A stretch of 64,000 nt of DNA, taken from NCBI GenBank assembly GCA_963855995.1, contig OY979717.1:30884297-30948296 (forward strand), written 5' to 3'. The position numbers and the translations under genes are program-made. The stretch's first letter is position 1, and each line of letters opens with the position of its first letter. Positions 934 to 51,238 of the stretch are shown piece after piece. This DNA comes from Muricea muricata. Taxonomy: Eukaryota; Cnidaria; Anthozoa; Malacalcyonacea; Plexauridae. The notes beneath the pieces are model-generated. The model searched no databases. It was not told the DNA's origin and was given only the letters and a program-made list of their open reading frames with translations.

Positions 934-1770
934 GGGCCAATTGCGGAATTGCAAAGCATCATGGTAGTTTAGTTACAGAACAGAATTTTGCTAAACATGG
1001 CGACCGAATTTTTTCAAGCACGGGGAGCTTCATTAATTCAAATTTATGGAAAATACAAATCATTGTTCAACTCAATTTAAATTTTCAAGAAATCTGTACG
1101 TCTTGTTCTATATTTTTGCGAAATTTTTGGTTTATACAAGCTACTGATTCTGAAATATTCAACATGCCGTACGGGATTCTCGAAATGAGGAATGACCAAT
1201 TTTCGAAGGAGTCAGGCACAAATTTTGCTGTTTTTCATAGCATAAAGGTGAGTACCTGGTTAAATTACTTCTAGGATAATAGGAACTTTATGGCTCATCA
1301 TTTGCATAAAGAAACACGGCGATCGCGTGGTTTCTAGCGGCTTGAGAAGCGAAGTTGCTTGTATACTTGTTCGGTCTAAAACAACACATCCTTGATCAAA
1401 CGTTCTTTTCACAAACCAAAACATTGAGGCCGTTTTGCCGCGAAATGTTTATATCTCAACACAAGCTTTGTTGTTCAAAATATTTTCACTGTTGTCAAAA
1501 GCACTTTTAAGGACTATTTCCTGTTCTTGGCAGGTTAAAATTTCCACAAAAATGTGAACAGATACTGTTCCTTCGGCAAATATTTTTTCCAACGTTTTGG
1601 AAATGCATTTTTTGTAAACAAATGGACAATACAAGACAAGAAGACCATAGTTTGAAGACAAGTGGGTGGACAAAAAACCTCAATGTCATCCCCCTTTTAC
1701 GCATGAGTTGCTGAAAGAACATTTAATAACCAACACCTCAATTAAAATAAACAATGGGCAACCAAATAAT
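934..1770 (+). repeat. Left 837-bp inverted arm
   Basis: This arm is inverted and nearly identical to 3741-4577. The open frames within it occur in both arms in opposite orientation and resemble no protein I know, so I treat the arm as non-coding. Confidence 0.85.
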
Positions 1771-1847
1771 GCACACAAACACAAAAAGGAAGGTTATCAG
1801 TTTTTAAGAACAAACTGGTAATTCATGTCTTAGTCAAGGCAAATATC

Positions 1848-3209
1848 ATGAAAGGCAAAGAAAAGTTTTTCTTAGTAAAGTGCAATGTCCATACATCCAT
1901 GAAAAAGACTCAGTATGTTGTTTATGTACACTTACATCAAGATACTGGCAAAGTATCTCATGCAAGCTGTTCATGCCCTGCTGGACAAGGAGGTTGTTGT
2001 AAGCATGTAGCAGCATTGCTGTTTCAACTTTTAGACTACATACAGCTTGAACTGACTGAAGTACCTAATGACTTAACATGCACCCAGCTACTTCAGCAAT
2101 GGCATGTACCACCAAATGATAAACTTGAAACAGCATTACTTTTTGAGCAGGTAAAATTTACGAAAGCAACTTGCAAAAAGTATATCAACCACAATACAAA
2201 AAACCGTCACCTGCATTTGGTAAAAAAGTTACTGAATTCGATTTGAAGAAATTAGAAGATGGTTTAAATCAACAAACTCATGTCAAGGCCTTTTAAAATC
2301 TAATCAGCATCAACCATGGGATTACAATGAGTATTTGGAAGGTCTACCTTCAAAGAGAGTTTTTATTGATGCAAATTTGCATGTCTCTCAACTTTACAAT
2401 AACAATATTAGAGAATCAGTACAAAATAAAATCAGTGTTCCAGACTTCTCTGAAGTATGCAAGCACCTACCATCTCAAGATTATGCACCATTTGTTCAAA
2501 ACTATCTATATACTACAAGAGAACAGATGGTCGAGTTAGAACGTAATACAAGAGGCCAATCAGATTGTACACTTTGGGTTGAAGAAAGGAGGTCCCGTTT
2601 AACCGCCTCCAATTTTGGTTCAGTTATTAAACGAAAGAAAAATATATTTCTAAAATCCCACTTACAAAAAATGCTTTCCCCAGCAACAAGTCAGTCTAAG
2701 ACACCAGAATCATGTTTGTGGGGTAAAACTAATGAGCAAGTCGCTATAGCAAAATATTTGGAGCAGTTAAAATCTGATGAAAAATCTGTGGCTGCTTGTA
2801 CACAGTGTGGATTATTTATAAACACTGAAACTCCTTGGCTTGGAGCCAGTCCAGACTGCCTGGTACATGACCCTGATGAAGAAATGCCATTGGGGTTAGG
2901 TGAAGTTAAGTGCCCATCATCTAAGAAAGACATGACAATTTCTGAAGCATGTCAGGATCCATCTTTTTTCCTAGCTGCACCGAGCAACAGAGCAAACCCA
3001 CTTTAAAGCATAATCATAACTGCTACTTCCAGGTACAAGGCCTGATGGCAGCATGCAAAGTGAAGTGGGCAGACTTTATTGTATATACTAAGCAAGAAAC
3101 ATTTAGTGAAAGAATTTACTTTAACACTGAATTGTGGTATAAAACAATGCTACCAGAATTAACTTCATTCTATTTTACATACATGTATCCAGAATTAACA
3201 AAACAGTAA
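1848..3209 (+). CDS. SWIM zinc-finger and YqaJ-type nuclease of the transposon
   Basis: The N-terminal part holds a SWIM zinc finger: CSCPAGQGGCCKHVAALLF, a CxCx(n)CxH pattern. The second half is a YqaJ-like (lambda exonuclease) domain of the PD-(D/E)XK fold, with RLTASNFG, LWGKTNEQVA, GASPDCLV and GEVKCPS supplying the usual acidic and lysine residues, followed by FQVQGLMAACKVKWADFIVY. Three frame changes break it, near 2175-2179 (A run), 2291-2294 (T run) and 2980-2981 (C pair). Each is cured by one extra base in the run, so the gene may be intact in the genome. It probably helps transposition by processing DNA ends, which is inference. It converges on the transposase fragment at 3368-3757. 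Confidence 0.7.
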
Positions 3210-12540: not shown

Positions 12541-13516
12541 AAAGCTAAATTAATTCTTTTATCGTAGTGAATTTAGCCCTGCATGCGGTCCTTTTTTTGG
12601 TGAAAAATGTTTATGCAGCAACACAGTTGTTGCTAGATGGCACAAGAAGTGTGTTATATCACCTTATCTGTGAAAAAATGAGTAAAATAATTGCCATACA
12701 GCCATAAAGCTGTCAAAAGTCAGAAAAAATAGCCTCGGGAGACTACCCTGTATCAAATACCAGCTCTCAGTGACTATGAAAATAAGTTCGTTTACTCCCC
12801 ATTTTTGAGGAAATAACCGGAATGGGTGTCCTTTGTGCCGAAAACATACAAAAAATTGAAGTAGAAATGAAAAAATACATCAATTTTTAAAACAATTCTT
12901 TCTTGGCTCTAAACTATACATTTAGGACACATATTCCAGCTAGACTCATAAACTAGAATATGCGTGCTTTCTAAAGCATACAATTTGTAATGCTAACATC
13001 GTTCCCAGACCCATCTCCCAAGTCCGCAAAGATAAGTAACACAATATCAAGAATGTTATGGTCACGTGACCGTTTCCATGGCAACAAAATATTGCAATTT
13101 GTTAACACTAGGCCTAACTATTATTATAGCAAGTTTGGTGGAGGTTGCTTTAATATATTACGAGTAATTGCCATTTATGTCATATTTTGCTAAAATGAGC
13201 TGGAGCCATGACTTAAGTGCACTGAGTAGATCTATACTCATGAAGGGGAAATCTCTAGTTCTCTACAGTTAAATTATAACTCCTTAACTACCCATTAACC
13301 CATTGTCAATTAAACTCATCTGGTGCTGGACAAGAAAAAAAAATAACTTGGGTGCACTGAATCTGGTTTGCATTACAGCTGAATGGGTTAACTACTGTCA
13401 CAAACTTCAAAATCAAGTTGATATAGGTACTTTAAAAGCTCCAATACAATGCTCACTAGGAAGTAAGAAATAATCTTGTCAATTTGTATAATAAATATAT
13501 TAAATAATATTGGTAT
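12541..13516. other. Intergenic with E-box plus X-box
   Basis: No gene is seen. At 13061-13085 a GTCACGTGAC palindrome is followed directly by GTTTCCATGGCAAC. A closely similar pair recurs at about 58449-58473, beside the microsatellite. Confidence 0.5.
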
Positions 13517-15180
13517 ATGATTTGTCTTAAGGATCACCAAAGAAATGAAACATTTTGTTGTCAACCGCAAAGTTCCACAGCAACTATACAGGCGTATACA
13601 GCTGAAACCAGTGAAGACCCGTCATTAGAAATTCTCCAGAAAGTGTTCCATCATGACCAGTTTAAAGGTAATCAAAGAGAAGTAGTCCAATCTCTTTTAA
13701 ATGATCAAGATACTTTGGCAATTATTCCCACCGGTGGGGGTAAATCAATGTGTTACTGGATTCCTGGGATTGTTACTAAAGGTGTTAAAGTGGTTATCAC
13801 ACCTCTTTTAGCCCTGCTGAGTGATCAAGTATCCAAGTTAAGAAATTATGGAATACCAGTGTGTTATGTCACTTCCAGCTTGCAAACCCAAGAAAGAGAT
13901 TCTATTTTCCATCAGTTGACCAAACCAGGTCCAAAATATAAATTCTTTTACATTACACCTGAATTTGCTCTGACTCCTCAAGTATCTTCCTGTTTCAAAG
14001 CCATGACAGAAAACAAAACCCTTAGTAGGTTTGTCATTGATGAGGTTCATTGTGTGGACACTTGGGGTAGCAGTTTTAGACCTGCCTATGGTCAGCTTAT
14101 AGAACTAAGAAAATTCAGCAGGCCTGTTGCAGCATTTACTGGTACAGCTACAAATGAGACACGACAACAAATAATTGAGAAGTTGGGCCTTTGTCAGCCA
14201 GAAATACATCAGGCTTCGGGTAATAGAAGTAACTTGTCATTTTCTGTGCTGAAGAAAAGAAACAAATACTCAAAAGAAGATGTTGTTGGGTATGTTAAAG
14301 AAAGCCATGGTAGTCAATGTGGCATTGTATATTGTTCATCTACCAAGGATACAGTTGAACTTGCATACATTTTTAAATCAAAAGGTATGTCAGCTGTATA
14401 TTATCATGGAAAGCTGGATCCATTTGAAAAAGCTACCAATGCCAAAGCTTGGTTAGATGGCAAAGCCAAAATAATGTGTGCTACAAATGCTTTTGGTATG
14501 GGTATAGACAAAGCAGAAGTACGGTTTGTTATCCATGATAGCATACCAAGATCGTTGGAGGACTACTACCAGGAAGCAGGTAGAGCCGGAAGAGATGGTG
14601 CCCATCAAATTGTGCAATTATGTTCAAGTTTTCAGATAGAAGTCAACTCCTGCGCACCACCTCTTCTACTGATTCACAGCAGATGAATCGAATTAAAAGA
14701 TCTGTTGATGCTGTGGTACGCTATTGCATGTCTACTACATGCATGAGGAAATTAATCATGGAACATTTTAATGATATAACAGATGTCAATTGCAATGGAA
14801 CTTGTGACAATTGTGCAAATTCTCCCTCTCCTCCTAAAGAATATACAAAAGAAGGTGCTATGGTTTGCAAATGTGTAGAGGAAATGGGAACATTAGTGCC
14901 AGCCATTACAGCCAAACAAGTGGCTCTCACTTTCAAAGGTTCAAAGTCCAAAGCTGAAGTGGAAAGTAAGGGATTTCATAAACTTGCACATTATGGAGCA
15001 GGCAAAAATGTTTTTAAAAATGATAGTGATGCAATAACATTTGTTCAGCATTTTATTATTGAAAATGTTCTGATTGAGAATATTGATATTGCGAGTGGTC
15101 GGCTCACAACACACATCACATTGGGAAGTGAAGCAACAGAGATACAAGATGACAGGAAAAAAATTTGGATTTCATTCTAA
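13517..15180 (+). CDS. RecQ-family DNA helicase, one frameshift
   Basis: Superfamily 2 helicase motifs appear in order in the first frame: motif I IIPTGGGKSM (residues about 68-78), Ia VVITPLLALLSDQ, II FVIDEVHCVDTWG (DEVH where most RecQ have DEAH), III FTGTAT, IV GIVYCSST, V ATNAFGMGIDKA, VI QEAGRAGRDG (about 352-361). The frame changes at the CCC run 14601-14603. The next frame supplies the RecQ zinc-binding part (MRKLIMEHFND then NGTCDNCAN) and a winged-helix (RQC-like) region ending at 15180. The protein would unwind 3'-tailed DNA. A start further upstream by splicing is possible. A lost C explains the break, so the gene may be intact. No HRDC domain is seen. It lies outside the Polinton, whose left end is at 15657. 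Confidence 0.8.
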
Positions 15181-15865: not shown

Positions 15866-17005
15866 TAGTCTAGCTGCTAACGACCAAAAAAGAGCTGAAT
15901 TGTTCACTTTAGTGATAAAAGCGTGAAACTTTGCATGATTGTTACTAAACATGTCATAAACAATTTTTGATATGGACCCAAGCTTAATTCAATCTCGGTC
16001 AATGTCATGAAATAGGGCATGCGCAGTGCGTGCGTCAGTAGATAAAAATTGGAAAATGAAATAATGTCTTATTTTGACTAAATACTCTTATGGAGTTTCT
16101 AAAGAGGATCAAACGCTATGTTACTTATCAGGTTGTAAAAGTGTAGTCTCTGAGATATCGCAGATCAAATATTTTTGAAAGTGCTGATTCAGCATTTTCT
16201 GTCCGATCAAAATCCCTCAGCAGTTGATAGTTACCTATTTCTTCTTTTGATATTATTGATTCTGATACAAGTGTATACCTAGGAAAATAGCTATGAAGTG
16301 GAGCAATGTCAATTTTTCCATTATATCTTGAATCAATATTCAAGTTCCAATCTATAATATTCACTATAATGATACAACCACTGAACATTGCAATATTAAT
16401 GAGACATTTAGCTCTAGCCAAATGAAGCTGAGATTGTCCCCTTTAAATCTCCAAAAATTATATATGTGAATGTTTAAAGAAGATTGCACTTTTATGACGA
16501 ATGCCTTCTGGTTAGCCCTTAATCAGAAATATAAATTTTGACCTGCGCAACGGTTTCTAGTAAATTTACGTTGTTGCACTTTTCAAAGCACTTTTTCTAC
16601 ATATACACTTCCCTTAAGATCAACAATATACAAGAAAGAAATACGTAATTATCAAACGCTGAGAGGTTTTAATAAGACAAAAAATGCTGAATCAGCAATT
16701 TCAAAAATTTTGAATCTATGATATCTCAGGAAATATACTATTACAATCATAAGTGTGATTTGGCATTTAATCCTCTTTACCAACTTTATACAAACGCTTA
16801 GTCAAAATAACACATCATTCGATTTCCCACTTTTTTTACAATTGATGTACGTGTACTGCGCTTGTCATATTCCATGACATCGACTAAGATTGAATTTGTC
16901 TTAGATCCATATCTAGATTTGATTATCTCAGCAATATTAGTAATTGGACAAATTTTCAAGCTTCTATCATAAAAGTGAACAATTTGGTCGTTAACGGCTG
17001 TACTA
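15866..17005. mobile_element. 1.1-kb foldback MITE, TSD ACA
   Basis: The ends TAGTCTAGCTG and TAGTACAGCCG (complement) are followed by a shared TAACGACCAAA and by longer imperfect inverted homology, including GCTGATTCAGCATTTT near 16181 with its partner near 16684. Flanks are ACA at 15863-15865 and 17006-17008, with the empty site in the opposite Polinton arm. No coding sequence is seen. Confidence 0.75.
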
Positions 17006-17321
17006 ACAGTCATTGTTAAAGGGCCCATGCAGCCATTTTCTTTTATTTCATCACCTTATAGATCGCAGCACGGTGAGTTTGGTGCTGCAAAAATTTTGTC
17101 GATACGATTATTCCTTGCGAAGGTATGCAGGGTTGAAGTAATGAAAATTAGGCATTTTGCGACGCCATGTTTGCCCATTGTCTGAGACTGGGGCGAGAGG
17201 TACTGTGACGTAAAAACCGGAACGGAAGTAAACACAACAAGAAAGCGCATTATCTTTCATCATGTAAATTATAGGGCACACACAGCAGTTTCGAATTACT
17301 CTCACATTTTGTTCGACAAAG

Positions 17322-20300
17322 ATGCCTGAAAGATGTGTTGTGACAGGCTGCAGCAACACGAGAAATTTAGACGAAGGTATTTCGCTTCACACAATACCTT
17401 TTTATGGTGACGAACGGCCAGAAGCGAAGAAAAGGAGGAAAAAGTGGGTTAGTTTTGTGAAACAAAAACGTGCAAAATGGGAACCAACACGACACTCGGG
17501 AATATGTTCGAAGCATTTTAAAGATACCGACTTTTCGCAAAGATTCGGCGAAGTCGAGGGGGTAAGAATGCAAGGTAAAAGATGGTTAAACTCTGATGAA
17601 CTTGGAGTTTCAGTATTTCCCAGTGTTTATATTGAAGTTACAGGAAATCCCCTGACCGGCAGAGCCAAACGACAGGTAAACTATGAAATATATATTTGTG
17701 AGGTAGTTCTTTTGCCTATTTTGGGTGCGTCAGAGTAAACTTATTGTATTTTTAGTTGATTAGAAGCGCGAAAAGCGGAGACGTGTTAGCTACAGGATCG
17801 CTGGAAACTGTTGCAAATCAAGCTACTACACGCACTGACGCTATTATACAACCTGAAGAGAAGGGTGAATGCTCTGGTGTTATATTGCCCCAACCGGATT
17901 CGCCAACAAAATGTGTCGAATGTTCGTCGCTGTCTGCAAAGAATCAGGAACTGAACAACACAATAAAGAAATTACAACGGTTACTGCAAGTGCGAGACAA
18001 AAAGTTAAGAAAGTACAAAAGAAAAGGTAGGAATTCCCAATTCAAATTATTACAAATACGGTTAAAGTATTTTGTTTGCAATTATGATGTATTAAATCGG
18101 TATATAAGCGCCAGTTATCTGAAAATTTATATTGTGCGCCTTATAGCTCTAAAGCTGGAAAACGCATTAAAACAATTTGGCGATATACCACAGAAAAGAG
18201 TGCGGGTGAAGTGATTTGGTGCTTCAGACAAAATGATTGAAGATTGCGAGGAAAGTGACTTTCAGATGGGAGGGGAATTTGATGTTAAAGAATTGGATGT
18301 TGAAGAAGAATTGGATGTTGAGCGAAGCCAAGCATCAACTTCTAGCTCACAGTATACAACAGGGTCAACAGAATCAACAGAAGAAGATCACAGCTCTGAT
18401 GATAATGACAGTCGGTAAATACAAATAATGTTTTATCCCTTTTAGTGGCAATGTGGTCAGTGCACACGTATATTTACTAGATGTATGCATTAGTCTATAT
18501 TTCAAATCCTCTTATTTTGTTTGTGTGCCAGTACCATATGCATGTTGTTAATCAGAACCCTCAAAAAATTCAAGATTCGGCCGGAATTGAGTTGCGGTGC
18601 ACCCCTAAATTTTCCTCGGTATGACCAATCATGGACGTAAGAATGATAAATCATTGGTATGATCAATGGTTCTGGTATGTCATATCTGCAGTCCTTGTAA
18701 TTGCTAATAATTTTTAAAAATTTGCCTTGAATTCACATAGGTTAGTTCTTGCTGGGAAAACTCTGAGAACAGAACCGAAGCAAGTTGTCTTCCTTTCACA
18801 GTTAATGCATCTGTTTAAATTTTGTCATGCTTGTAAAGCAGACAATCCAGAAGTACAGAAATATGAGATTGGCAGCATGGTTGTTATTAAAACTATTTGT
18901 CATGCCTGCAAGCAAGAAATGAAATGGCAAAGTCAACCATTTTTGCCAGGAGGGAGTAACCCAGCTGGGAACCTCTTAATTGGCTTTTCTATACTGATGA
19001 CTGGTGGTTCGCCTTCACGGGTCATAAGAATGTTCGAGCACATTGGTATTTGCTGCATATCTCTTCGTACTTACTTTGAGTACCAGAGGGTGAGTAAGTT
19101 TAATGGGATATATTTTTTCATGAGGCAAATATATTGACTTAGTTGCATGTGATCTATTCATTATATCCTAGGTAGCCCACTAATTGATGGTATATTTTTG
19201 GTTCAAAAAATGTGTATTTATTCTTGTGTTACTCTGTCTACAACTTTATTCATGCACACGGTCCAGTTCAATGAGCGGTCAGCTTGTGATCCAAAAACAA
19301 CCATCAATTGAACCAAAAACATACCATCAATTGAACCAAAAACATACCATCAATTAGTGGGCCCCTAGGATTATATGGCATTGAATACTGCTGCCTATTT
19401 TTATGTTAAAATACGATTTATTCAAATTTCTTTTTGTAGAACAAATTGTTCCCATCCATTTACATATACTGGGAGAGATATAAGAACCAACTAGTTGCAA
19501 AGGTGAAAGCCGAAGAAGATCCTGTGGTACTTGCCGGGGATGGACGGCATGATAGTATGGGCCACAGTGCCAAATACTGTGCTTATACAGTCTTCTCTTG
19601 CTCCCTTCCTGGAATTATCCATTTTGAGCTAGTCCAGGTTTGCAAGCATATTATAATCCCAGTATTGTACCATGAGTATCTAATATGTAGCAGACTCAGC
19701 CCTTATTAGTCACAATCTTTCCCTCACATTTCTTGATTATATTTTAATATATTTAGAGAAACCAAGCAGGAAGCAGTCCAGCTATGGAATTCATGGCTTT
19801 CAAATTGTGCATGGACTATTTGTTTGGGAATGATATAAATATGGGAACGTTTATATCTGACAGACACAAGACCATTGCCAGTTACATGAAGAAGAATCTA
19901 AAAAAAGTCATTCACTACTATGATCTCTGGCATTTAAAGAAAAGTAAGTGACTAAAAATGAAAGTGTACTTTATATTCTGTTTATAAAGCGGAAGTTTAC
20001 CTTTGATTAACACTTATAGAAATCCACAAGGTCCTTTCAAAGATTGCAAAAGAGAAAGGATGTGAAGATCTTGTAGACTGGGTAAAACCATGTGAAACTC
20101 ATCTTTATTGGAGTGCGACATCCACATATAGTGGTGATGGTGATATCATCTGGGCTAAATTCAGAAGCTTTTTGAGCCATGTTGTCAACAAACACAAAAA
20201 TTTGGATGACCCTTTGTTTGATAAATGTGCTCATAGAGAAATTGAACCCAGAAGATGGTTAAAATCCGGTGAGTCTAAAATAGTAAAGAACTGAGAAACA

Positions 20301-21352
20301 TCAAGGTGCAGTGCATAATGGGTTAATTATGTACCTGTAAAATATCTGTTTTGACAAGGTACTGTTGTTCATGACCGGTTATGTGCTGAGCTCAACAAGA
20401 AAAGTTTGGTTTCTGGCATAAAGAAGATATCACCCCTAGCCCAAACAAGTTGCTTAGAAGCCTTCCACTCAGTGTTGAACCACTTCTGCCGAAAGATGCT
20501 GGCTTTTTCATTTGCTGGGATGTATTGCAGGTAGATATGTATAATGTAGCCCAATTCTTATTGTTTCAGTAATAACTAGAGATCAGCGCATGTATTATCT
20601 GTATTACATAATACCATTGCATAATACAGATAATATATGCACTGATTCCTGTATGTTACTGAAACCACTTGGGCTACTAGGGGCTGATATGTCATTTTTT
20701 AAAAGTTACATACCTGCCTCGAAGCCCGAATCAACTATCTCATGGAAATTGAGAGAGAGTAATCTAATTGTCTGAGCAAAATTAGAGATCAAACGTAAAC
20801 ATTCAACAAAAAATTGATTTTTTGTGACATTTTGTTGGAAAAGTAATATCAAGAATGATGATTGTTTTGCTACTCACTATCTATCAAGAAACAGATAGCA
20901 AGTAGCTAGCCAATCAAATTACAGCATTTCCAATAGTATGATTCTACTGAAATTGAAAAGCGTAATTATGGACTAATATGACAATAGGATATGTGAGAAA
21001 ACAAAATATGTTATAAGTAACACATTTTCGATTTCTTTTAATTTAGGCATGCTATTGCTGCAATCCACTTCAATTCCAACCTTCAACGTGAAGTAAAAAC
21101 TAGAAAAAGTGACAACAGGGAAATGGTTAAGGTGTCGTACCCAAAGTTCAAGAATGGAGAGGCAACTGTTAAGTCTGTTAGAATAAAGCCAAATTTTGGT
21201 ATGTGACAAGTTTTGTGTGACATAGTGAAGAGTTTATTGATAACAATGAATAAAAAATTTGTCTTTATTTAGAGTTATTGCTGTTGTATATTTTGAAGAG
21301 CCTAGCTTGTGACATTACTCAAAAGTTAAGGATTGTAAATTTAACATGTTAA
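17322..21352 (+). CDS. Kolobok transposase with THAP domain (10 exons)
   Basis: Proposed exons: 17322-17675, 17756-18026, 18147-18414, 18741-19089, 19440-19637, 19757-19943, 20020-20268, 20359-20530, 21047-21198, 21273-21352. All junctions are GT-AG and phase-compatible, giving 760 codons. Exon 1 is a THAP zinc finger (CVVTGC near the start, GICSKHF near its end). Exon 2 ends in a coiled coil. The catalytic part shows AGDGRHDSMGHSAKY (Asp), ISDRHKTIASYMKK (Asp) and SCLEAFHSVLNHF (Glu). The enzyme would bind the element ends by its THAP finger and cut and paste at TTAA. Codon 231 (18212-18214) is TGA; the same frame continues on both sides, so this copy is dead unless the stop is an error or is read through. 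Confidence 0.8.
19169..19370. repeat. MITE in Kolobok intron 4
   Basis: The ends CCCACTAATTGATGGTAT and its complement lie within CCTAG-like flanks. The phrase ACCATCAATTGAACCAAAAA is repeated in tandem at its right side. Confidence 0.55.
20715..20950 (-). repeat. Dispersed repeat in Kolobok intron 8
   Basis: This is an inverted copy of about 46787-47035: it shares ATAGTTGATTCGGGCTTCG, CAATTAGATTACTC, TTTTTTGTTGAAT and AGTAGAATCATACTA in the same order. The two copies lie inside different transposons (Kolobok and P-like). Confidence 0.6.
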
Positions 21353-21371
21353 TAGTCTTCAACAGAATTAT

Positions 21372-23186
21372 TTAGTCTTCATCTAGTTCAAATCCTGTGT
21401 AGCTTTCATCTTTCTCTGCAGGGAACTTCTTCCTAATGAGGATATATGCGCATGATGGCAAAGGTTTTCTGACTTTTCCCATTATTCCATAAACAAGCCT
21501 ACAGAACTCTCTGTATGAAACACTTCGTAAGAACCTAAAATGAATAATAATTATGGTCACTAAAATAGCAATGCAACAAATTAAAATGAGGAAATATAAA
21601 TTAGAAAAGATATCTACATAAACCAGATTATCTTAAATCTGGAAAATGTTGCCAACCATGGTGGTATCTTGTGGCCATACACACACCTAACTAGAATTTG
21701 GTTATAGCACAGGGGCAGGTTTTATCAAACTTGTTTTATATTTTCAACTTTCCCAAAATTAAAGCTGAATGCTTTTGGTACAACCAGCTTCAATACAGGG
21801 AGATAGGGCCAATGAGTTGAAATTTCCATGTCCATGCATGTCACATTACAAATCTCATTAAAGGGAAATGGCAACAAAAATTTTTATCGTCTTATTTGAA
21901 AGAGACTCCAAAACAATGTATAGAAGTCAATTACAGAATTTTTATATCTGCCTTATTTGGTGAGATATTTTGACTTGAAATCTTTAGTTGTTCGCCATCT
22001 TGGATATTTGTAGATATGCATGATACGTCACAACTTGGGTCACGCAATTTTTTTTCTTAGGACACAATGATTAATTTTCTCTAATAACCACACACATAGT
22101 AAGTGTTTTGGATTTCAGCACGGACTGAAAAGGTTTCACAAATATTCTATTTGTGGTAGGTATTTAGGAGAAGCTTTGAATCGCTTATCCCTGTTGTGAC
22201 GTCACTAAAACATTGTTAATGAGGTTAAAAATTAACCCAAGATGGCGGACAGTTCGATTATTTAGGTCAGAATATCTCCCGAAGTAAAACAGATATAAAA
22301 ATTTTGTAATAGACTTCTATATATTATTTCAGAGTCTCTTTCAAATGAGAAAATAAAATTTTTTGTTGCCATTTCCCTTTAATACCATTATCCCAATCAC
22401 ACAGGGAGTCAATTGGTTTTCCGGTCAATAAGAAAGCAGGTGCAGAATGTTGCACTGCTGAGGGCCCTACTTTCTATTTGCAATACAGCAGTTATAGTAT
22501 ACCTTTCTTCTGATTCCATTTGAGTATATTTTCCCTTTATTGTGGTCTTGTAGTGTGAAGATGCCATTCTTAGACTCCACTTTTCAAGACAAATAGAGGC
22601 AAATCCTGGATGATCTGTAATGCATTGGAGTTTTGTTTCTTCTCCAATATCTTTCTTAACTAGAACACTATTTAACTCCTCCACACAGACTTCTTGTTCT
22701 TGGCAACAGTAACACTCGTTAGGATTTTGAAGAAGGCTTGTGTTACAATTTCCACATGTACACCTACAAGTTAGGGTGTAAAAAGATTAGGTATCAACTA
22801 CACATGCTAAACAATGCCACATGGCAGGTGTGTATCGGCTTCTGCATTATGCTGATTTATGCTGTCATGTTTGTATTACAGTATATTAAAAAGCATTACC
22901 ATTCACTGACTGGTATTGATCCATTTAAACGACGCGTAAGCATTTCATCTAAATTTCGCTCCTCTGCCATTTCAGCTTCGTACCTAGCAGTCCATTCTTC
23001 GTCTGCAATCGGATCATTTCGGTAGGCATATTCTTCTTCGCTACTAGACAAATACTCGCTTGAATATTTGCCGACTTTACTTTGGTCCGTGTTTTCCATG
23101 AGTTCCTCCTCCATTTCTTGCTCAAAATCAGAACATCCTGAATTCTCAGACTCGAAAATTACTTCGGAGCTTGACGAAGAACTCAT
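21372..23186 (-). CDS. P2X7 intracellular 'ballast'-like protein carried by the Kolobok
   Basis: Three minus-strand exons, 23186-22900, 22763-22503 and 21534-21372, join in phase through GT-AG sites to give exactly 237 codons (236 residues). The first about 90 residues are acidic and Ser-rich (SEVIFESENSGCSDFEQEME). The rest matches the C-terminal zinc 'ballast' domain of P2X7 receptors: WCTCGNC (Cys97, 99, 102), NECYCCQEQEVC, DHPGFASICL, SYREFCRLVYG and PLPSCAYILIRKKFP. No channel domain or membrane segment is present. Only the orientation, opposite to the transposase and inside its TTAA-flanked ends, says this is cargo. There is no frameshift or stop, so it may be under selection. Its role is unknown; a zinc-bound partner or transposition cofactor is a guess. 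Confidence 0.8.
21862..22378. mobile_element. TTAA-flanked MITE (Kolobok type) in the ballast-gene intron
   Basis: The ends AGGGAAATGGCAAC and its complement lie between TTAA at 21858-21861 and 22379-22382. It is 517 bp, non-coding, with further inverted homology inside (CAGATATAAAAATTTTGTA and partner). The TTAA duplication and AGGG end suggest mobilisation by a Kolobok transposase. It does not touch the exons. Confidence 0.75.
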
Positions 23187-25144
23187 TTTATTGAATTATA
23201 ACGTTTTAAGGCAAACGTTTGCTCCGTCAAATAAACGTAAGTGAGCTTGTATCCGCAGTTGTAAAAAATTGTAACATAAAACCAAAAATAAAACATATGT
23301 GTTTATAGTGTGCTGATCAACATGGGTTCCGGTTTTGACGTCACAAGCCAAAGTGTCATGGCGGCAAAATTGAACACGCGCGGCCAAAACTCAAATGATA
23401 ATAACTTCGCAAGGAATAATCGTATCAAAAAAATTTTTGCTGCTCTAAACTCACCGTGTTGCGATCTATAAGGTAATAAAATAAACAAAGATGGCTGCAT
23501 TGGCCCTTTAAATGCAAACGTGTGGCACATTTGCGCCATCAAATGCTCGTTCTTGAGTTGTCTTCTTTACTGAAACTTTGTATTCAGTGTTGTGAAGTGA
23601 TTATGTGTGGACATAAACTGCTAATATTCTATTGAAAAAAGGGTGAATCAAGCTGATTGTTCTATATGTGCTATAGAGCAGGGTTGCATTCATTTTGTAT
23701 GCTTGTTTATGTTGATCTTGACATGGATTAATTTTATAATAATGATTCCGTTTTAATACACAGTGCCATTATTTCCTTGTGAACGATAACTTGTTATACT
23801 TTGATAAAGTTGCCCTGATTTTGATATTTTCCATGCGTGTGTATTGATCGTAAAGCGAAGCCTATAGCTATACTGTTGACAAGCAGCATCCTACATTTAA
23901 AAACGTTCTTGCAGCAACATTACTAATATATCCTCATGATTTAGTTTCCCCTGGCGTCTATAGCGTGCATGTTTACTGTAAACAGCACGCACGATAAAAT
24001 AATTTCAAACCTTAACTTTACCAAAGCAGGAGATTACCGACCTGCTTGAAACTTCTGTAAGTTCTAGTTTTATCTTAAACGTATGTATCTTATGATTGGA
24101 ATTTGGGACAAATGTAATGTGTTACACACATATATATATATATAAAGAAGAATTCGGTGATGAGGGCATTTCTGCAGTAAACTTGTCAGTTTAGTAGTGT
24201 CACCGATATAATTATGCGCATAATTTTTTTCTCTGAACAAAGACTGGCTTTGGTGTTAAATGACATGTGTCTAATTGCCTAATAACCTACTAAGACTGAT
24301 TATATTGGGTGTTTGTGTATATAAGCTTTGTGTTAGTGAGAAAATTAAGGCGATGGACGCCAAGATTTTTATGCCATTGTACAGTATTAGCCAGTATAAT
24401 ATACATATACATGCTTTGATAGACGGCCTGATGGTCATTAAAATCTTTCAATACTGCAGTGTGGCCAATATGAACGAGATATAAAACATGCACAATATGC
24501 TAATTATATATACCCGTGAGCACTCACGCAAATGACGCAATGTTGAGTTTTAGTGTAGATTGTCTTGATTTAACGAGTCTTACATCTGCAGCAATACAGT
24601 AAACGTTTAAACTATGATTCTTCATCCATTGGTCTGGGATCATTGGTTTGGGTCTATATTGTTACAGTGTCACGCAATCTAAGACACAGTTTGGAATTTG
24701 GTAAAGTATGGCTAACCACATGGCATAACTGATATACCAGAAGCGCGGGATATTACGATGCAAGACGTGCTCCAACACGCTCAGAGATGACTGGTTTAAA
24801 ACTTGCTTGTTGTGCTAGAGTATAAAAATCGGCAGGGTTTTTCGAGAGACCAGCACAGATATCGTGTTAGCTTGCGAGGTGCATGTGCACGCACATGGTT
24901 AGGAGCGTGCTGATTAGGCAATGCGATAAATTCCCCCATTCAAAATTCTTTAATGGTCACAGATTTATTAAGACAACAACGATTTTTACAAGGCTTTTAC
25001 CAATGAAATGCCAACTTTGTACAACTTAAGAAATGTTTTTAATTTTTTTTAAACTGTTGAGCTACGGTAACAACAGTAAAAAAAGATAAATTTGAGTCGA
25101 TAAGAGCATACTGCTTGCAACTTTCACAGAGATAAGACTTTTAG

Positions 25145-39412: not shown

Positions 39413-42400
39413 TTAAGTGTCCTGTTCTTCAATTTGCTGAATCCTATGACGAGCTGCTACTGCCGCATCTCTGGTGGGTCTGAATGGGTAGTATTCCCGG
39501 AGGTATTCCGTTGACCATCTTCGCCACACTGCGTCTTTGCAACAGGATAAGAATTTGGCACGTTTACGTAAATCTGCTTCTTCTTCCTGATGAGCTTCCA
39601 GTTCTGGTATTGCGTTACATCCAACAAACAACATCGAGTTGGGTGTAAGGGTTGGCATTTGAACATCGTCCTCCAAATACTGGAGTGGTCTATTGTTCAA
39701 TGCAATCTCAACATCCAAGACAACTTCCTGCAGCTCCTTCCACATCAGACATCCGTTTCCAATGGTTTTGTAGAATGAACGTTTCACCAACCCAATCAAA
39801 CGTTCGAACTGCCCACCCCACCACGGAGCACGACTCAAGTTTAATTGCCAGTGGATTTCGCACGTAATAAGAAAGTTCTGAAGTCTCTCATCTGCTTGCA
39901 CAGTTTTCAACCATTTCGCAGCAGCCACGAACGTTTTTCCATTATCAGAATATATTTTTTCAGGTCGTCCTCTTCTCGCGATAAATCGCTTAAGAGTTTG
40001 GAGGAATTCTTGGGTGTTTAGAGACGACAACAGCTCGATGTAAACAGCCCTGGTCAAACTACAAGCGTACAACACGACGTATGCCTTTCCCTCCGTTTTC
40101 TTGTTTTTCTTGTATTTCAGCGGTCCAGCGAAGTCTACTCCAGCTGCTTGGAAGGGTCGACTTCCTTCGGTTCTCTCGGTTGGAAGATTTCCGGGTGTTG
40201 GTTGGTTCAACGCTTTCGCTCGAAATCGTCGGCATCCATAGCAATTCTTTATCACTTTACGAGTTAACTGTCGCAATCTCGGGATCCAGTATTTGCTTCG
40301 TATGTGTGTCATAGTCGTACCAATTCCCCCGTGAAGAGTACGCAAGTGAGAATCTTGTACAAGCTTCTCTGCCAATAGACTGGTATCAGGAACGTAAACA
40401 GGATAGTGTCCTTGAATTCTCCCTCGACATACTAAGACACCGTCCCTGTTAGCTTGTAGGTTCAGTTGCAGCCGATCTTCTTCTAAGTTACAGCTGGATT
40501 GGGCACGCTTTATCCAGAGGAGCCGCTGGGTCGCAATCTCAGGCGTTGTCAATGGACCACGACGTTTCTGGTTAGGACTACGGCAGTTGAACGTGAATCT
40601 TGCTACCCACGAACAGATTCTCAGCGTCTTCCACAGCTCAAACTTGGTCAATAAGCCCTCGACTCGTTGGTTTCTTCTACTGTCGTTGTGAAAATCTTCC
40701 GAATCACTTTGGTTTCAGCATCGCTTTCTTTCGTTGCTGAGGTAACGATATCACATGGCCAGTTCTTCCGATCAGCTAGCCATTCAGGACCTTTCCACCA
40801 CAGTTGATTTCCTTTCACCGGTCCACCTCTACTCCCCAAGTCAGCTGGATTCTCTTTGGTAGGTACGTGACGCCATTTAAGCTGGGTGTTGGATTTGATT
40901 TTCGCCACTGGATTCGCGACGAACTGCTTGAAATTTCCCCCACCATTTATCCAGTGAAGGGCAACGGTGCTGTCCAGCCACCTTTGCAATACGGTTACAG
41001 GAAATCCTTCGAGAGCTCTTTGGACGTTTTCAACTAGATTGGCTGCCATATGAGCGGACACAAGCTCGAGGCGCGGAATTGTCAATCCTTGTTTTGCCAA
41101 TCTTGCTTTCGCTGCAACGAGACCTTGACTTACACCCGATGGTTGACGGACAACTGCGTAGACAACACTGGAGACACCCTCGCCACTTGCATCACCGAAT
41201 GCATGGAGCTCTATGGACTGGATATCTTCGCGGAATGTTACCAATGAACGCGGTGCGTTAACTTGTTTTGGAAGGCTTTGTTCCCATCGCGACCACTTTT
41301 GCTTGAGATCGTTTTCGATTGGCGCATCCCATCCGAGTTTCCTCTGGCACGTTTCACGATAAACTAACTTCCCTTGTAGGGTCTGAGGTGAAACTAACCC
41401 CAAGGGATCGTATATCTTAGCAAGTTTTTGCAATGTTCCTCGTTTGGTGATGGTAGAAGCCTTAGACGGAATGATGACGCTGATTATGTCAGCTCTTTTA
41501 TCCCAAGGTAGACCAAGGATACTGGATTCTCCCCCGTCAGCGGTTCCAAGTTGTTGCTTTGCGAATGTTTGTTCTTCAGTTATATTGGTATCAGTCTCTT
41601 CCAATTCGGGTGCATTCGAGTGCCACTTATGCAGTGTAAAGGTTGCGTCGTCAAATATCTCAGTCGCTCTTTTCTTTAAGCACAGTGCTTCAGCTACGGT
41701 CGTCTTTCCGCTAATAAGATCGTCTACGTACATGCTCTTTCGTAATGTTTCCACTTCAGCAGGCATCCGGTCTTCCCACGACTCCAGGTGATGTTCAATA
41801 ACTCCCCCGAGTAAAAATGGTGAACATGTTAGTCCAAACAGTGCATGAGTAAACCGTAAAGTTTCAACTTTAGCATCATCGTGTGGCTTCCAATGAAATC
41901 GCAGTGCGTCTCTCTCGGCTTCTTTAATTCGCACTTGAAGAAAAGCTTGTTTTAAATCTCCGGTCAAAGCAACAGGGTGGAATCTCATTCTAACCAACAC
42001 GTCCCACAACCGATTTTGTAGAGGTGGCCCAGCATTTAAGCAGTCGTTTAAACTGGGTGCTTCAGAGTGTGCTCGGGCGGACGCATCGTACACGATTCGT
42101 AGTTTTGTTGATTCTGCAGCTTCTCTCACAACAGGTTTGTGCGGTATATAAAACTCGGTGCCAGATGGTAGATTGCTCGCGTCTTCTACGATTCCATCTT
42201 CCTTTTTTTTCTCGATTATCTCCTCGTATGGTTTAGTGAGTTCAGTCTGATTCAATTTCCTAGTTAAGTTGTTAAGTCGTCTCAAACTTCCGTTCTTGTT
42301 TGATGGAAGGGTTGGATGATTACCTTTCCATGGTAAACCAGTCTCGTACCAACCCTGTTCACTTCTCACGAGTTGCTCACGGAATTCAGTGTAAACGTCA

Positions 42401-42473
42401 GTTTGATCATGTTCCGGGCGGTCCGAAATTCCGAGGACGTCCAGTCGGCAAAGCTGTTCGTAATCACGTTGGT
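39413..42473 (-). pseudogene. BEL pol: reverse transcriptase, RNase H, integrase
   Basis: The first frame (to 40648) has the reverse transcriptase core: RIVYDASARAHSEAPSLND, ALTGDLKQAFLQV, and YVDD in MYVDDLISG, then an RNase H region (HAFGDASGEGVSSVVYAVV). The second frame (40651-39413) is the integrase: zinc-binding HLRTLHGG and CYGCRRF, then GVDFAGPL, IYSDNGKTF and WGGQFERLI giving Asp, Asp, Glu. The frames meet with a shift near the AAA run (TTT on the plus strand, 40671-40673) that one added A would cure. Coding continues beyond the first Met to the P-element junction at 42473. The retained catalytic residues suggest recent activity of the family. Confidence 0.8.
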
Positions 42474-42754
42474 TGGTTTGGGCACAGTTAATAAAATGTG
42501 ATGGTTAGGCTAGCCGGCAAGCATCAAAGAGGGCGGCAAAATATGTTAAGGATCAAAGGGGAAGAAGTCACGTGGTAACTTCACGGCACGGTGCTGTGAG
42601 ATCCTACACTATTTTATATAGGAGTTGATTTAATGAGATTGAATTTCCAATCAAAATATCAAATTTCAGATTGTTATGCCAGACAAAAACGAATGTTTTT
42701 TTAAAGCTGGCAAGCCAAGTATTTTGGAATAAAATTATTTGCTTTTAAAGCGGC

Positions 42755-44971: not shown

Positions 44972-47900
44972 CTACTCTTTTTTTGTCTTTTTTACACGTT
45001 TCTTTACTGGTTCATCACTGACAGTCTGCCATTTCCTTACTTCGTATCGCCCACCAACATTTCCTCGGATAACTGGTGCAATGTCCCTTTGTGTAGCAAT
45101 GGTGAGGTCATTGTAGCCAAACTGCTGGGCTGTCGGATTATCTGATCTGCAACCTCTAGCTCTCTGGTGACCAAAATAATCTTCCAGAATGTCTTGCATA
45201 AACCTTTCTGTTAGCACATACTGAAATCCCTGCTCAAGTAAAAACTTAATTGCTTCTACATGTGACAGAACAGAGATTTTTAGACCATTGTAGGTTTGTG
45301 GTGACAAAAACATTTTTCCTCTTTCATCTGCTGAATACTCTCCAGGCCGAGTTAATGTACTTTTCCTCCAATCTTCTAAGTATTTGAGGAAAACATTGGT
45401 AAGCCAGGTAAAGCGCTCATCATCACATGATGTATATGGTTTGATAAATTCATTTCTCTTCCTGCTATGCTCATCTTTTGATCGAACATTAGTGCAGTCG
45501 AAGAAAGAATTCATCATCTCACAAAATCTAGCAGTACCAAGGACCTCTTCTCTATCACTTTCTTGCAATGCAATTGCCACAGACTTGCTTAAAACTTGGA
45601 CTGCCAGCTTGACTTTCATCTTGCTGTAAGGGGTGAGGATGATGTGGTCCAAGGTAAGCTTAGGAAGGGAATGCAGGGCAAAATCTTGGTCATTGTAAAA
45701 TAAATCGGCTATGTGCTTAAACAACAAATAGTTCCCATTGTTCCACATATAGCGGCTACGAGAACCTGATCCAGAATTGTATAAACAATTCCGTGAGGTT
45801 TTCATCAGATGTGGAGAATCGGCAAAGAAGTAAATATAGCGTGTCATTGCAAAAACGTTGCGAGTTTTATACACAACGTCACACTTTATTTCCTCAGCAA
45901 GGTTGATGTGAAGATTGAAGAACTTTCTGTTTGGCGATGCTCCATCATTGACAGCTGCAACCACCCATAAATTAACAGCAACCTCTAGAACAGAGACGAT
46001 TTTCCAAAACATTGGCATAAGCTGATACGATGTGACATTACCAGTGAAGTAATAGCCAATGATATGCTTCAAGTCGGTACATAACCCACGGACAAGGAAG
46101 GCCAAAGCATGAGAAGCAACCATATCTTCTTCTTGGATGTTAGCGTAATTGGTCATAGGATCACCAAGATCAATGAGCCCAATCAATTCCCCAGAATTTT
46201 TGTCAAAAACCAAGTTTGACTGGATTTTCATTTCATCCATCACAACACAAACATACCTAATAATAATATGAAATAATAAAATATATATTCTTGTTGAAAA
46301 TGGAAAATTTTTTTGGGTTGTATTGGTTTTGATTGTAAGAAATGTTTCAAACTTAGCCCTCTATATTGGGTACCATACCCCCATTTGGGAATTCCTTACA
46401 TCACTGTAATACTGTATAGTATTATGTAATATTTCAAATCTATGAGGACTGAACTTGTTTTCAAGTCAACACAATTTGTCCACTCCTAATTGTCAGGTTT
46501 GAAATTACATGATACGTGAAGAGAGGTAAATAAACTTTCCAAGCACTGGATGAAAATATTCCACCCTAGGTATCATCTGAGCAAAATAAAGCAACATGGT
46601 TGGCTATTTAGGGACCATTCATTGTTTATGGCCGGTGGTGGGCTGGTAATATCTATCATAAGCCAATAAGAAACTTCTTGACCCCTCTTATTTAAAAAGC
46701 AAAAAATCCATGACCCCCCCTTGATGAAAATACAAATATATATTAAACTAGCCCGCCATTTCGTATTGACATTTATAATAAATATTAGTAGAATCATACT
46801 AGTATTCTATTGCAAATGCTGTAATTTGATTGGTTACTCTACTCACTATCTATTCCTTGATAGATAGCGAGTGGCGAAACAATCATTTTCCTATAGAGAT
46901 TTCTTTTAAAAAAATTGCTTAAAAATCAAATTTTTTGTTGAATATTCCATGTTTGACCTCTGATTCTACTAAAACAATTAGATTACTCGCTCTCGATTTC
47001 AATGCAGTGATAGTTGATTCGGGCTTCGCCCTCATCAACTATCACCGCATAGAAATCTCGAGCTCGTAATCTAATTGTTAATTAGCTTTGATGAACATAT
47101 CACTGAACAAATTATTCAATAGCAGGTGACACACCCCCAACCTATTGGCATATTTTTTATGACCCCCCCCTCAAATTGCCTAAAATTTTGGATGCCCCCC
47201 CTATATTCTTACCAGCCCACCCTCAGCCATAAATAATGAATGGTCCCTTAGTCATGAATTATTATGGGTATGATGTTGGAAATGTTAGCCTGATACAACA
47301 TGTATGTTAGACAATGCTGTACTATCATACATCATGATCTTTTAATAGACAATATATAAATATATTAGTACATTATCAGTGTTTACTTTAAATTCATAGT
47401 TTATGATTACTACCTCTGAACATCTGAAAATGAAGATGTTTTTTCCCTCAAACTTTCAACATTTTCTTTATTGATTCCTGCTTTTGGTTTGTAATAGTTT
47501 TTGTAGTCTCTGAGGACACGCTCACTCGGGAGGATCAAGGCACCACTGTCTTGCAGCTCACGATATGCACTAGCAGATTTAGCATGAAGTGACAGGGCAA
47601 ACCGTATTATTTGGGGATGATATATTCTTCCCATCTTGCTTGTTTGAAGAAGCTTCATCTGCTGCTCCCAGAAGAACTTCGATCATGTGCGGATTTCCTT
47701 CAAGGTTTTTTCCAGCCATGATTTTAAGGATGTCTTTCTCTGTGGACTCACTTATGCCCAAACCATCCTTTTCAATCTTTCTTTCCAAATTCTGAAGTCT
47801 TCCCTCTAGTTCCTTACATTCGAGTCGAGTGGCTTTTAAAGTAGCACGTAACTTTTCAGGTCCACATGCTGCAAGCGGTGCTTTGGGTTTTGCTGGAAGC

Positions 47901-49135: not shown

Positions 49136-49358
49136 AAAATCACATTGAACGAGTTAAAACAACTAAAATATTTCTTTCTGGGTCAAAAAATAGCAATTTC
49201 GATTGAGGATACGCGCCTATACAATGTAATTCAATACACTCTTAACATCTGGCGTGCCGTCAAGTTTCCACGTGACCAAAAAATTAGCGAACAATAACAT
49301 ATGTGTCACGTGGTACAGCTAGCCTAACCATCACATTTTATTAACTGTGGTTTGGGCA

Positions 49359-51238
49359 AGAAGCAAAGCTGTATAATCTATTTCTTTTACCTTGGCGATG
49401 ATAGCCCATCCGAACTTTGTTCTCTCGGGTACCGGCTCTCCCGTATTTCCAACACGAGGTGGCTCGTCTGTCTTGATGCATAGATAGTCGCTTGCACCGA
49501 GAATTAGGTGGATTGGTAGCTTCAATTTTCGATCGTTGTCTTCGACTCGAATGCCCTTCAAATGCTCGTAACTAGCAATCAGCTCTTCGTACTTTGGGTT
49601 ATCAACGTTCAAAAGTTCATTCTTATCGACTTTCGTCACGTTTACTTTCATCTCGAATTTCCCGTCCAACGCTTCGACATTCATTGTAAAAATCTCCATT
49701 TCTCGCGTAACTGTTCCGAGCATCATTTCTACGTGACGTACTTCTTTACGGCGCTCCCGGTGTGACAGGCGGTTCAATAGTGCAGCAGAGGCGTAGGAAC
49801 TCCCTGCTCCTGTATCAAGAAGCGCGCGACACTTTTCCCCCTCAACATTAACTACAACTACAGGATAAACTAGTGGTTCGTAACTAGTCCCGGTTGCGGT
49901 CAGTAATGGTACGACTTGTGGACAAATGGAAGTATGGTGTTTTTGATTACACTTTTGACAATTAATGTTGCTCTTACAGTCCGAGGCGCGATGTTTTTGG
50001 CCGGTACAGTTCAAACAACGTTTTTTCTCTGCCAGAACTTTCTTTCGGGCCGAAACAGTTAAAACAGTTGAGCAATCTTTAGAGGAATTGGTGGACTCTT
50101 CACACTAGACACACGTGCGTTTTTTGCGTTCACTGTCTTTGGTAAGGAAAAATTTACTATCGCGTTTAGGTTTAGTACTTTCATTGCTTACATCATCGAG
50201 TGTATGAATGTCTTTCCATTTCTTAAGAGCAGTTACTAACCGCGGGAGATCCCAATCCTGCCATTCCTGTTCCCCTCGCACTAGGTCAGCTTTAATCCCT
50301 TTTAACTTTTCTAGTGGTACCGTTTACCCTTTCTATTTTCCCCAGTGTCTCTAGCGATTGTACGTCATAGGAAAGTGTCTTATAGAATTCATGCACTTTT
50401 GCTGGATTTGTTCGCGTTACTGTAGGTAGTCCCATTATATTCTGAATGTGAGCATTGATGATTTCGCTCGTTTTACCATACTCGTCTTTTAGAACATTTT
50501 TGGCTCGCTCGTAGCCCTCAGTTGTGAATGGCAACCCATCAATATCTGCCCGTATTTTTGGTTCTAACAGTTCCTTTAGAAATCCAAACTTCGACACAGC
50601 TGGTAAATCGGTGGAATCTATCTCTGCTTCGAACGTGTTCCAGAATGGAAACCAATCAGAGAATTTACCACTAAACTTTCTAATTTGTAATTTAGGTAAT
50701 TTTATATTTTGTACCTGTTTGGATTGCTTTTCCACCGACGTCTCTCGAAGTCCATTTTCTGCTTTAATATGAACTCTTGGTGTTCTTTCTCGCGCTTTCG
50801 CTCCTCTTCTTTGTGTATCCGTTGTAACTCAAGCTTCGCTTTCTCGATTGATAACTGTTTTTGTGTCTCCACATCCACAGCTTTACGTTGCATTTCCTCG
50901 TCTTTCTCGCGTTGTACGCTGGCTTCCTCATTGTTTATTTGGTCTAAGGTATCCCTCACTTGGGTCAAATGTGTATCTACATCGTTCAGCTTTGTTTCAA
51001 TCCCTTTAGCCTATCCCCGCACATTTTCCTCACTTTCTTTGTCAATAAACTTTAACTCCTCTATCTCTTCTTTTAGTACGTACAGCGCAGCGACCTTGTT
51101 GTTAATAGATCGCTCATTTCTTAGAAGCGAGGCTTTGTTGCGCTCAGTTACCGCGTCGTTTGTTTTCTCTAAGATCATGTTTAGTGCTTTAAATTTTCCA
51201 TCCAATTCTGATATTTTTGCTTCCATCTCGCTAATCAC
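49359..51238 (-). pseudogene. BEL gag and aspartic protease
   Basis: From 51238 downwards: a coiled coil (EMEAKISELDGKFKALNMIL), an in-frame TAG at about 51011, a charged helix (MTQVRDTLDQINNEEASVQR), a shift at 50732-50733, then the DUF1759-like gag core (IKLPKLQIRKFSGKFSDWFP). After another shift near 50300 and an in-frame TAG near 50107 come a zinc knuckle (CQKCNQKHHTSIC) and the protease active site ALLDTGAGSSYASA. It is broken several times, so it is non-functional as written. The last codons before the P-like insertion read into that element. Confidence 0.75.

Follow-up and report, generated by a model that had tools for sequence, protein, structure and literature searches.

A two-gene Kolobok element of Muricea muricata with a KolX gene related to the P2X7 ballast domain

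Kolobok transposons of the Kol0 group, as originally reported by Kojima & Bao (2022, PMC9587614), encode two proteins, a transposase and KolX. The passages of that paper dealing with KolX describe it as similar to residues 476-595 of human P2X7 and as adopting the ballast fold, in which seven conserved cysteines surround two zinc ions. The same passages place Kol0 in vertebrates, annelids, cnidarians, and sponges, trace P2X7 to a P2X4-like gene that fused with KolX, and regard Nanor as a likely domesticated KolX. Stand-alone ballast proteins across animals and the capture of such a domain by P2X7 are described in the sections of Rump et al. (2020, PMC7016195) drawn on here, a paper whose main text contains the string "transpos" 0 times. 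Among the papers listed by an open-licence literature search, no other was seen to make the link between KolX or Kolobok and P2X7; PMC9319628 mentions Kolobok and P2X7, in the passages retrieved, in unrelated places. The initial annotation of the present locus proposed that the stand-alone homologs may be transposon genes and that P2X7 may have taken its tail from one. This is, in the passages cited, already the conclusion of Kojima & Bao (2022, PMC9587614), and the core idea that the P2X7 tail comes from a Kolobok gene has been known since 2022.

The locus studied here lies in a 64-kb window (64,000 nucleotides, the whole stretch of DNA that was analyzed) of the cnidarian Muricea muricata. 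Like Kol0 of the Kolobok-1_XT type (PMC9587614), it combines a second gene beside the transposase with a TTAA duplication and RR/YY ends, and, like KolX in the published passages, this second gene encodes a ballast protein similar to human P2X7 476-595. Compared with the published description of KolX, ours is a cnidarian copy that has three exons and carries a nested TTAA element in its second intron. Nanor and the other stand-alone ZCD proteins resemble KolX in being, in the sections of PMC7016195 concerned, mostly short, with a C-terminal ballast domain and no transmembrane part, but unlike KolX, they are described without mention of transposons. We give a probability of about 0.92 to the account as a whole, in which the locus is a two-gene Kolobok of the Kol0 kind, KolX would work as an accessory factor, and P2X7 would have obtained its ballast through a KolX fusion.

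Architecture of the element and its two genes

The Kolobok element spans positions 17020-23507 of the window (6,488 bp) and encloses both the transposase and the KolX genes. It is bounded by the following features:

17016-17019, no strand: left TTAA target-site duplication, flanking the element
17020-17126, + strand: left terminal inverted repeat, 107 bp, starting AGGGCCCATGCAGCC
23401-23507, - strand: right terminal inverted repeat, pairing with the left repeat
23508-23511, no strand: right TTAA target-site duplication, flanking the element

The two 107-bp repeats are 88% identical, and the ends read AGGGCC(C/A)ATGCAGCC, giving the overall form 5'-AGGG...CCCT-3'. Both the 4-bp TTAA target-site duplication and the 5'-RR / YY-3' termini are those of the Kolobok superfamily, the latter unlike piggyBac. 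When the two 350-bp element ends were aligned, they scored 149, against a control of 1000 random same-spaced pairs drawn from the 64-kb window: the 988 pairs starting at least 400 bp from the element start scored 32 or less, and the 12 nearer ones, which overlap the element's own ends, reached 123.

The transposase gene occupies the left part of the element and was modeled with ten exons:

17322-17675, + strand: exon 1, with counterparts in P0015 and P0018; THAP domain (Pfam E 2e-11)
17756-18026, + strand: exon 2, linker, coiled-coil-like by eye
18228-18414, + strand: exon 3, begun at the acceptor that gives an open frame
18741-19089, 19440-19637, 19757-19943, + strand: exons 4-6, part of 18741-21198
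20020-20268, 20359-20530, 21047-21198, + strand: exons 7-9, part of 18741-21198
21273-21352, + strand: exon 10, short, with the stop codon TAA at 21350-21352

Exons 4-9 carry D448, D515, D536xxH539, and E659 (numbering of a 759-aa model), all invariant in 6/6 aligned rows, which corresponds to the DDD/E transposase with C/DxxH between the second D and the last E that characterizes Kolobok. These would be the catalytic residues, an assignment that we made ourselves from the published description of Kolobok. In Pfam, THAP alone scored above its cut-off, a Mutator-like match reaching 17.2 bits where 26.5 are needed. Among the 7999 candidate proteins that shared most words with the transposase and were scored, at least 47 matched it. 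Every match with a named organism was cnidarian except Antedon mediterranea, and identity over the aligned part was 43-63% in 17 of the best 20 matches and 35-42% in the other three. Pattern matches to the transposase in viral contigs were found, 0 of which were confirmed.

A stop codon in the transposase, reported by the initial annotation, is present when exon 3 begins at acceptor 18147, which leaves one in-frame stop, and disappears with acceptor 18228, which keeps the frame open for 732 residues. As this in-frame acceptor avoids the stop, we rejected the latter as proof of a dead partner. Exon 10 is not matched by the longer C-termini of P0015 and P0018, whose final ~100 or more residues lack an equivalent in the window; the transposase P0014 likewise ends early. 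Because its C-terminus is shorter than those of P0015 and P0018, the copy may be non-autonomous, yet its frame would be open with acceptor 18228.

KolX lies on the opposite strand, to the right of the transposase:

22900-23186, - strand: KolX exon 1, acidic, serine-rich start with a conserved ADEEW-type motif
22503-22763, - strand: KolX exon 2, encoding the cysteine-rich region of the ballast domain
21862-22378, no strand: nested 517-bp MITE-like element, in KolX intron 2
21372-21534, - strand: KolX exon 3, containing the stop codon

Its introns have GT/AG borders, and the joined exons amount to 711 nt, that is 236 aa plus the stop, or 237 codons. Frame 0 contains the terminal stop only, where the other two frames have 10 and 21 stops. 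The three-exon gene of 237 codons had been called beforehand with exact coordinates, and its frame is intact, as claimed. The exon model is further supported by an alignment (A1) whose seven database proteins run gap-free across both exon joins. The two genes are convergent, with 19 bp between the stop codons TAA 21350-21352 of the transposase and TAA 21372-21374 of KolX. That the gene faces the transposase at this distance from inside TTAA-flanked Kolobok ends was likewise correctly seen, the TTAA on both sides and the 107-bp inverted repeats with AGGG enclosing both genes. The match of KolX to the P2RX7_C family falls inside the inverted repeats, so that a second gene with a ballast domain lies within the element, as in Kol0.

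The nested 517-bp element is flanked by TTAA at 21858-21861 and 22379-22382, ends in AGGGAAATGGCAAC, and has inverted repeats of about 150 bp. The predicted protein P0013 matches 26% of KolX at 95% identity and continues into intron sequence. Once the insert is removed from the window, the alignment to P0013 passes through the insertion point, pairing DWDNGINEICNV with DWDNGSYEICNV, and shows a single two-residue gap farther along; if the insert is retained, the match breaks at that point. Since P0013 aligns only with the insert left out, a sibling copy without it exists, and the nested TTAA element in KolX intron 2, absent from this sibling, is a new detail. P0010 is 92% identical to KolX over 33% of the query (exon 1), drops out of frame close to the end of the exon, and carries a leucine where A1 has an invariant proline. 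We infer that P0010 and P0013 represent copies from the species of the window or a very close relative.

The initial annotation viewed KolX as cargo. On such a reading, KolX would be a host ballast gene acquired by this single transposon copy or family. Stand-alone ballast genes are indeed widespread in animals and described as host genes in the sections of PMC7016195 concerned, and this alternative survives better than any other. It is nevertheless very unlikely: in the passages of PMC9587614, KolX is the second protein of Kol0 as first described and Kol0 is stated to range from sponges and cnidarians to annelids and vertebrates, and other copies of the family exist, namely P0010 and P0013. 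We rejected the cargo reading on this published Kol0 definition; KolX is an accessory gene of the Kol0 lineage. Even less probable is a host ballast gene that lies beside a Kolobok by chance, with the ends misjudged, a scenario to which a window rich in other mobile-element genes lends itself, but both genes lie between the inverted repeats and TTAA duplications, and just 19 bp separate their stop codons.

Relationship of KolX to the P2X7 ballast domain

KolX matched the Pfam family P2RX7_C (PF20478) with 41.9 bits (cut-off 23.5) and an E-value of 1.4e-10, the sole Pfam family found in it at E ≤ 0.01, and 8/8 members of A1 match the same family at E ≤ 0.001. No P2X channel domain was found in the 236-aa protein by Pfam at E ≤ 0.01, and KolX does not qualify as a P2X7 receptor. 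Database proteins matching KolX numbered 13 by single-sequence search and 64 by profile search; those with a named organism were all cnidarian except one from a mollusc, Sinanodonta woodiana. Identity to named cnidarian KolX proteins was 47-56% in local alignments and 42-53% over the whole alignment. Three of the profile matches, P0065, P0078, and P0075, gave no P2RX7_C match at E ≤ 0.01 in Pfam. Phage records contained no match to KolX, and viral contigs and prokaryote genome contigs contained pattern matches, 0 of them confirmed.

Among solved structures, P2X7 was the sole phmmer match to KolX up to E 1, at E 0.57, and was found by a KolX profile search at E 0.019 and 0.028. Alignment of A1 with rat P2X7 474-592 by hhalign gave a probability of 96.3% (E 1.5e-9 for that one pair) and paired P2X7 C477, C479, C482, C498, C499, C506, and C572 with KolX C97, C99, C102, C115, C116, C143, and C211, and R546 and R578 with R186 and R217. 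In this register, KolX has 7/7 of the cysteines of the P2RX7_C family, the seven P2X7 residues presumably meant being those that we read off the alignment. The partner of C506 differs between methods, being KolX C122 in the profile search against structures and C143 in hhalign; we prefer the latter because QCIT then pairs with QCIT. Besides the co-linear cysteines, the two proteins share LR...YR and LPSC...IRK.FP...GF blocks in hhalign.

Conservation was scored in 35 KolX rows, made up of the window protein and the 34 of the 64 matches whose end appeared complete by a GF filter, with the rat sequence aligned to them. R186 is kept in 35 of these rows, C211 and R217 in 34 each, and C143 in 33; among rows with a letter at the position, C97 and C102 are kept in 28/28, C115 and C116 in 30/30, and C99 in 26/28. 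The guanine-nucleotide site of P2X7 comprises R546-H547 and R574xxR578xxxxxK583, and R546 and R578 are the site residues kept in invertebrates, according to the relevant sections of Rump et al. (2020, PMC7016195). KolX has the equivalents of R546 and R578 and lacks those of H547, R574, and K583.

These data support the view that KolX is a relative of the P2X7 ballast domain, and the earlier identification of the domain stands on the P2RX7_C match and the aligned seven cysteines, R546, and R578. The seven cysteines and the positions of the two arginines are common to KolX and the P2X7 ballast (exon 13). On the other hand, KolX is a stand-alone protein with no channel while the P2X7 ballast sits in a receptor, it has additional sequence between its CC pair and QCIT, and its ballast is split over two exons, where that of P2X7 lies in one, which encodes 170 aa according to the passage concerned in PMC7016195. 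Chance cysteine richness in a gene unrelated to P2X7 could explain the non-significant phmmer and marginal profile values against P2X7 structures, but it is hardly credible given the Pfam score above cut-off, the agreement of all A1 members, the co-linear cysteines, and the shared sequence blocks.

Possible role of KolX and proposed origin of the P2X7 tail

In the Kol0 account, the transposase would cut and paste the element at TTAA sites. KolX would be transcribed from near the right end and would act as a small zinc-stabilized accessory factor working with the transposase, most likely by assembling or regulating the transposase-DNA complex. The literature passages retrieved give no biochemical role for KolX. 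We favor a helper role because KolX and the transposase are kept to a similar degree among cnidarian relatives (47-56% versus 43-63%, the latter in 17 of the best 20 matches), and an idle passenger would hardly be kept as KolX is. We put the odds that KolX is needed for transposition at about even. Control by nucleotides through R186 and R217 (P2X7 R546 and R578) is a testable possibility, although we consider it improbable. GTP is used by the THAP-type transposase of the P element, which would make a nucleotide-binding partner unsurprising.

The P2X7 ballast would then have arisen when a P2X4-like gene fused with a KolX coding sequence, following Kojima & Bao (2022, PMC9587614). When rat P2X7 was compared by BLAST with the window KolX and its 64 matches, P0109, P0094, P0100, P0106, and P0088 outscored the window KolX, which came sixth. 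A tree of 29 ballast domains (27 of the 64 matches, the window KolX, and rat P2X7) had 8/26 well-supported inner branches and set P0094, P0100, and P0106 apart as a separate clade (99/99); the terminal branch leading to rat P2X7 was about 4 changes per column long, which makes the placement of P2X7 impossible. Judging from these comparisons, the direct donor was probably nearer to the group of P0094, P0100, and P0106 than to the window KolX, and the vertebrate donor of the P2X7 ballast would have to be sought elsewhere than in this KolX.

One of the profile matches, P0075 (E 2.9e-71), is a predicted protein named "CUB domain-containing protein-like isoform X3 [Acropora muricata]". By eye, a stretch near its N-terminus resembles a signal peptide. 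Residues 191-238 match half a CUB domain (E 0.0019, under the Pfam cut-off; positions 6-54 of the 110 in the profile), and residue 238 onward aligns with KolX from C97 through its C-terminus. In the window KolX, the junction of exons 1 and 2 falls within the codon for W96, so the chimera picks up KolX at the beginning of exon 2. In the tree, P0075 groups with P0073 (100/98). This structure fits a host gene splicing into KolX exons 2-3, the same kind of step as proposed for P2X7, and it may equally be a gene-prediction artifact. The CUB-KolX protein is reported as a new detail, a candidate second capture. We only tentatively suggest that KolX could serve as a ready-made 3' exon cassette into which host genes have spliced repeatedly, P2X7 being an old and P0075 a young, independent example; if true, host genes would repeatedly gain a C-terminal zinc ballast.

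P2X7 is a medically important receptor, and the main evolutionary claim about it is not new. A single element with both ends, both genes, and its duplications confirms the membership of the inner P2X7 tail in a family of transposon genes, and the element is a well-preserved further example of Kol0 with KolX. It also adds testable details, namely the retention of guanine-nucleotide-site arginines by a transposon protein and what may be a present-day capture of the same kind.

Ballast genes elsewhere and other contents of the window

A tick protein in the sections of PMC7016195 consulted joins "TAHP" (which we read as THAP) to a ballast domain and could reflect a Kolobok gene pair; the finding in the same sections that ballast genes are linked to two markers could likewise reflect such pairs. 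The Dendronephthya KolX P0078 and transposase P0049 were considered as a linked pair and set aside, as the longest contig of 3,488,676 bases listed for both says nothing about distance.

Outside the left Kolobok end, at 13508-15180, are RecQ-like helicase frames (Pfam DEAD, Helicase_C, RecQ_Zn_bind, and RQC); RecQ genes are found within other Kolobok lineages, according to passages of PMC9587614. Positions 15866-17005 are strongly palindromic and end ~10 bp before the Kolobok duplication, perhaps as another foldback element, with arms 15898-16027/16855-16984 and 16044-16297/16582-16835 that are 74% complementary. Further to the left, a SWIM-like stretch (by eye) begins the interval 1770-3006 and is followed by a YqaJ/viral alkaline exonuclease-like frame at 2236-3006 (Pfam).

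To the right of the element, retroelement frames lie on the - strand at 39413-42504 and 49331-50828, including an integrase with H2C2 zinc binding (39413-40714, Pfam), the others being reverse transcriptase- or gag-like by eye. A transposase with the Pfam TNP-like RNase H and GTP-binding insertion domains, which we take to be P-element-like, lies at 44972-46360. Finally, a repeat of ~220 bp occurs at 20720-20939, in intron 8 of the Kolobok transposase, and again at 46804-47028 in the opposite orientation, the two copies being 81% identical.
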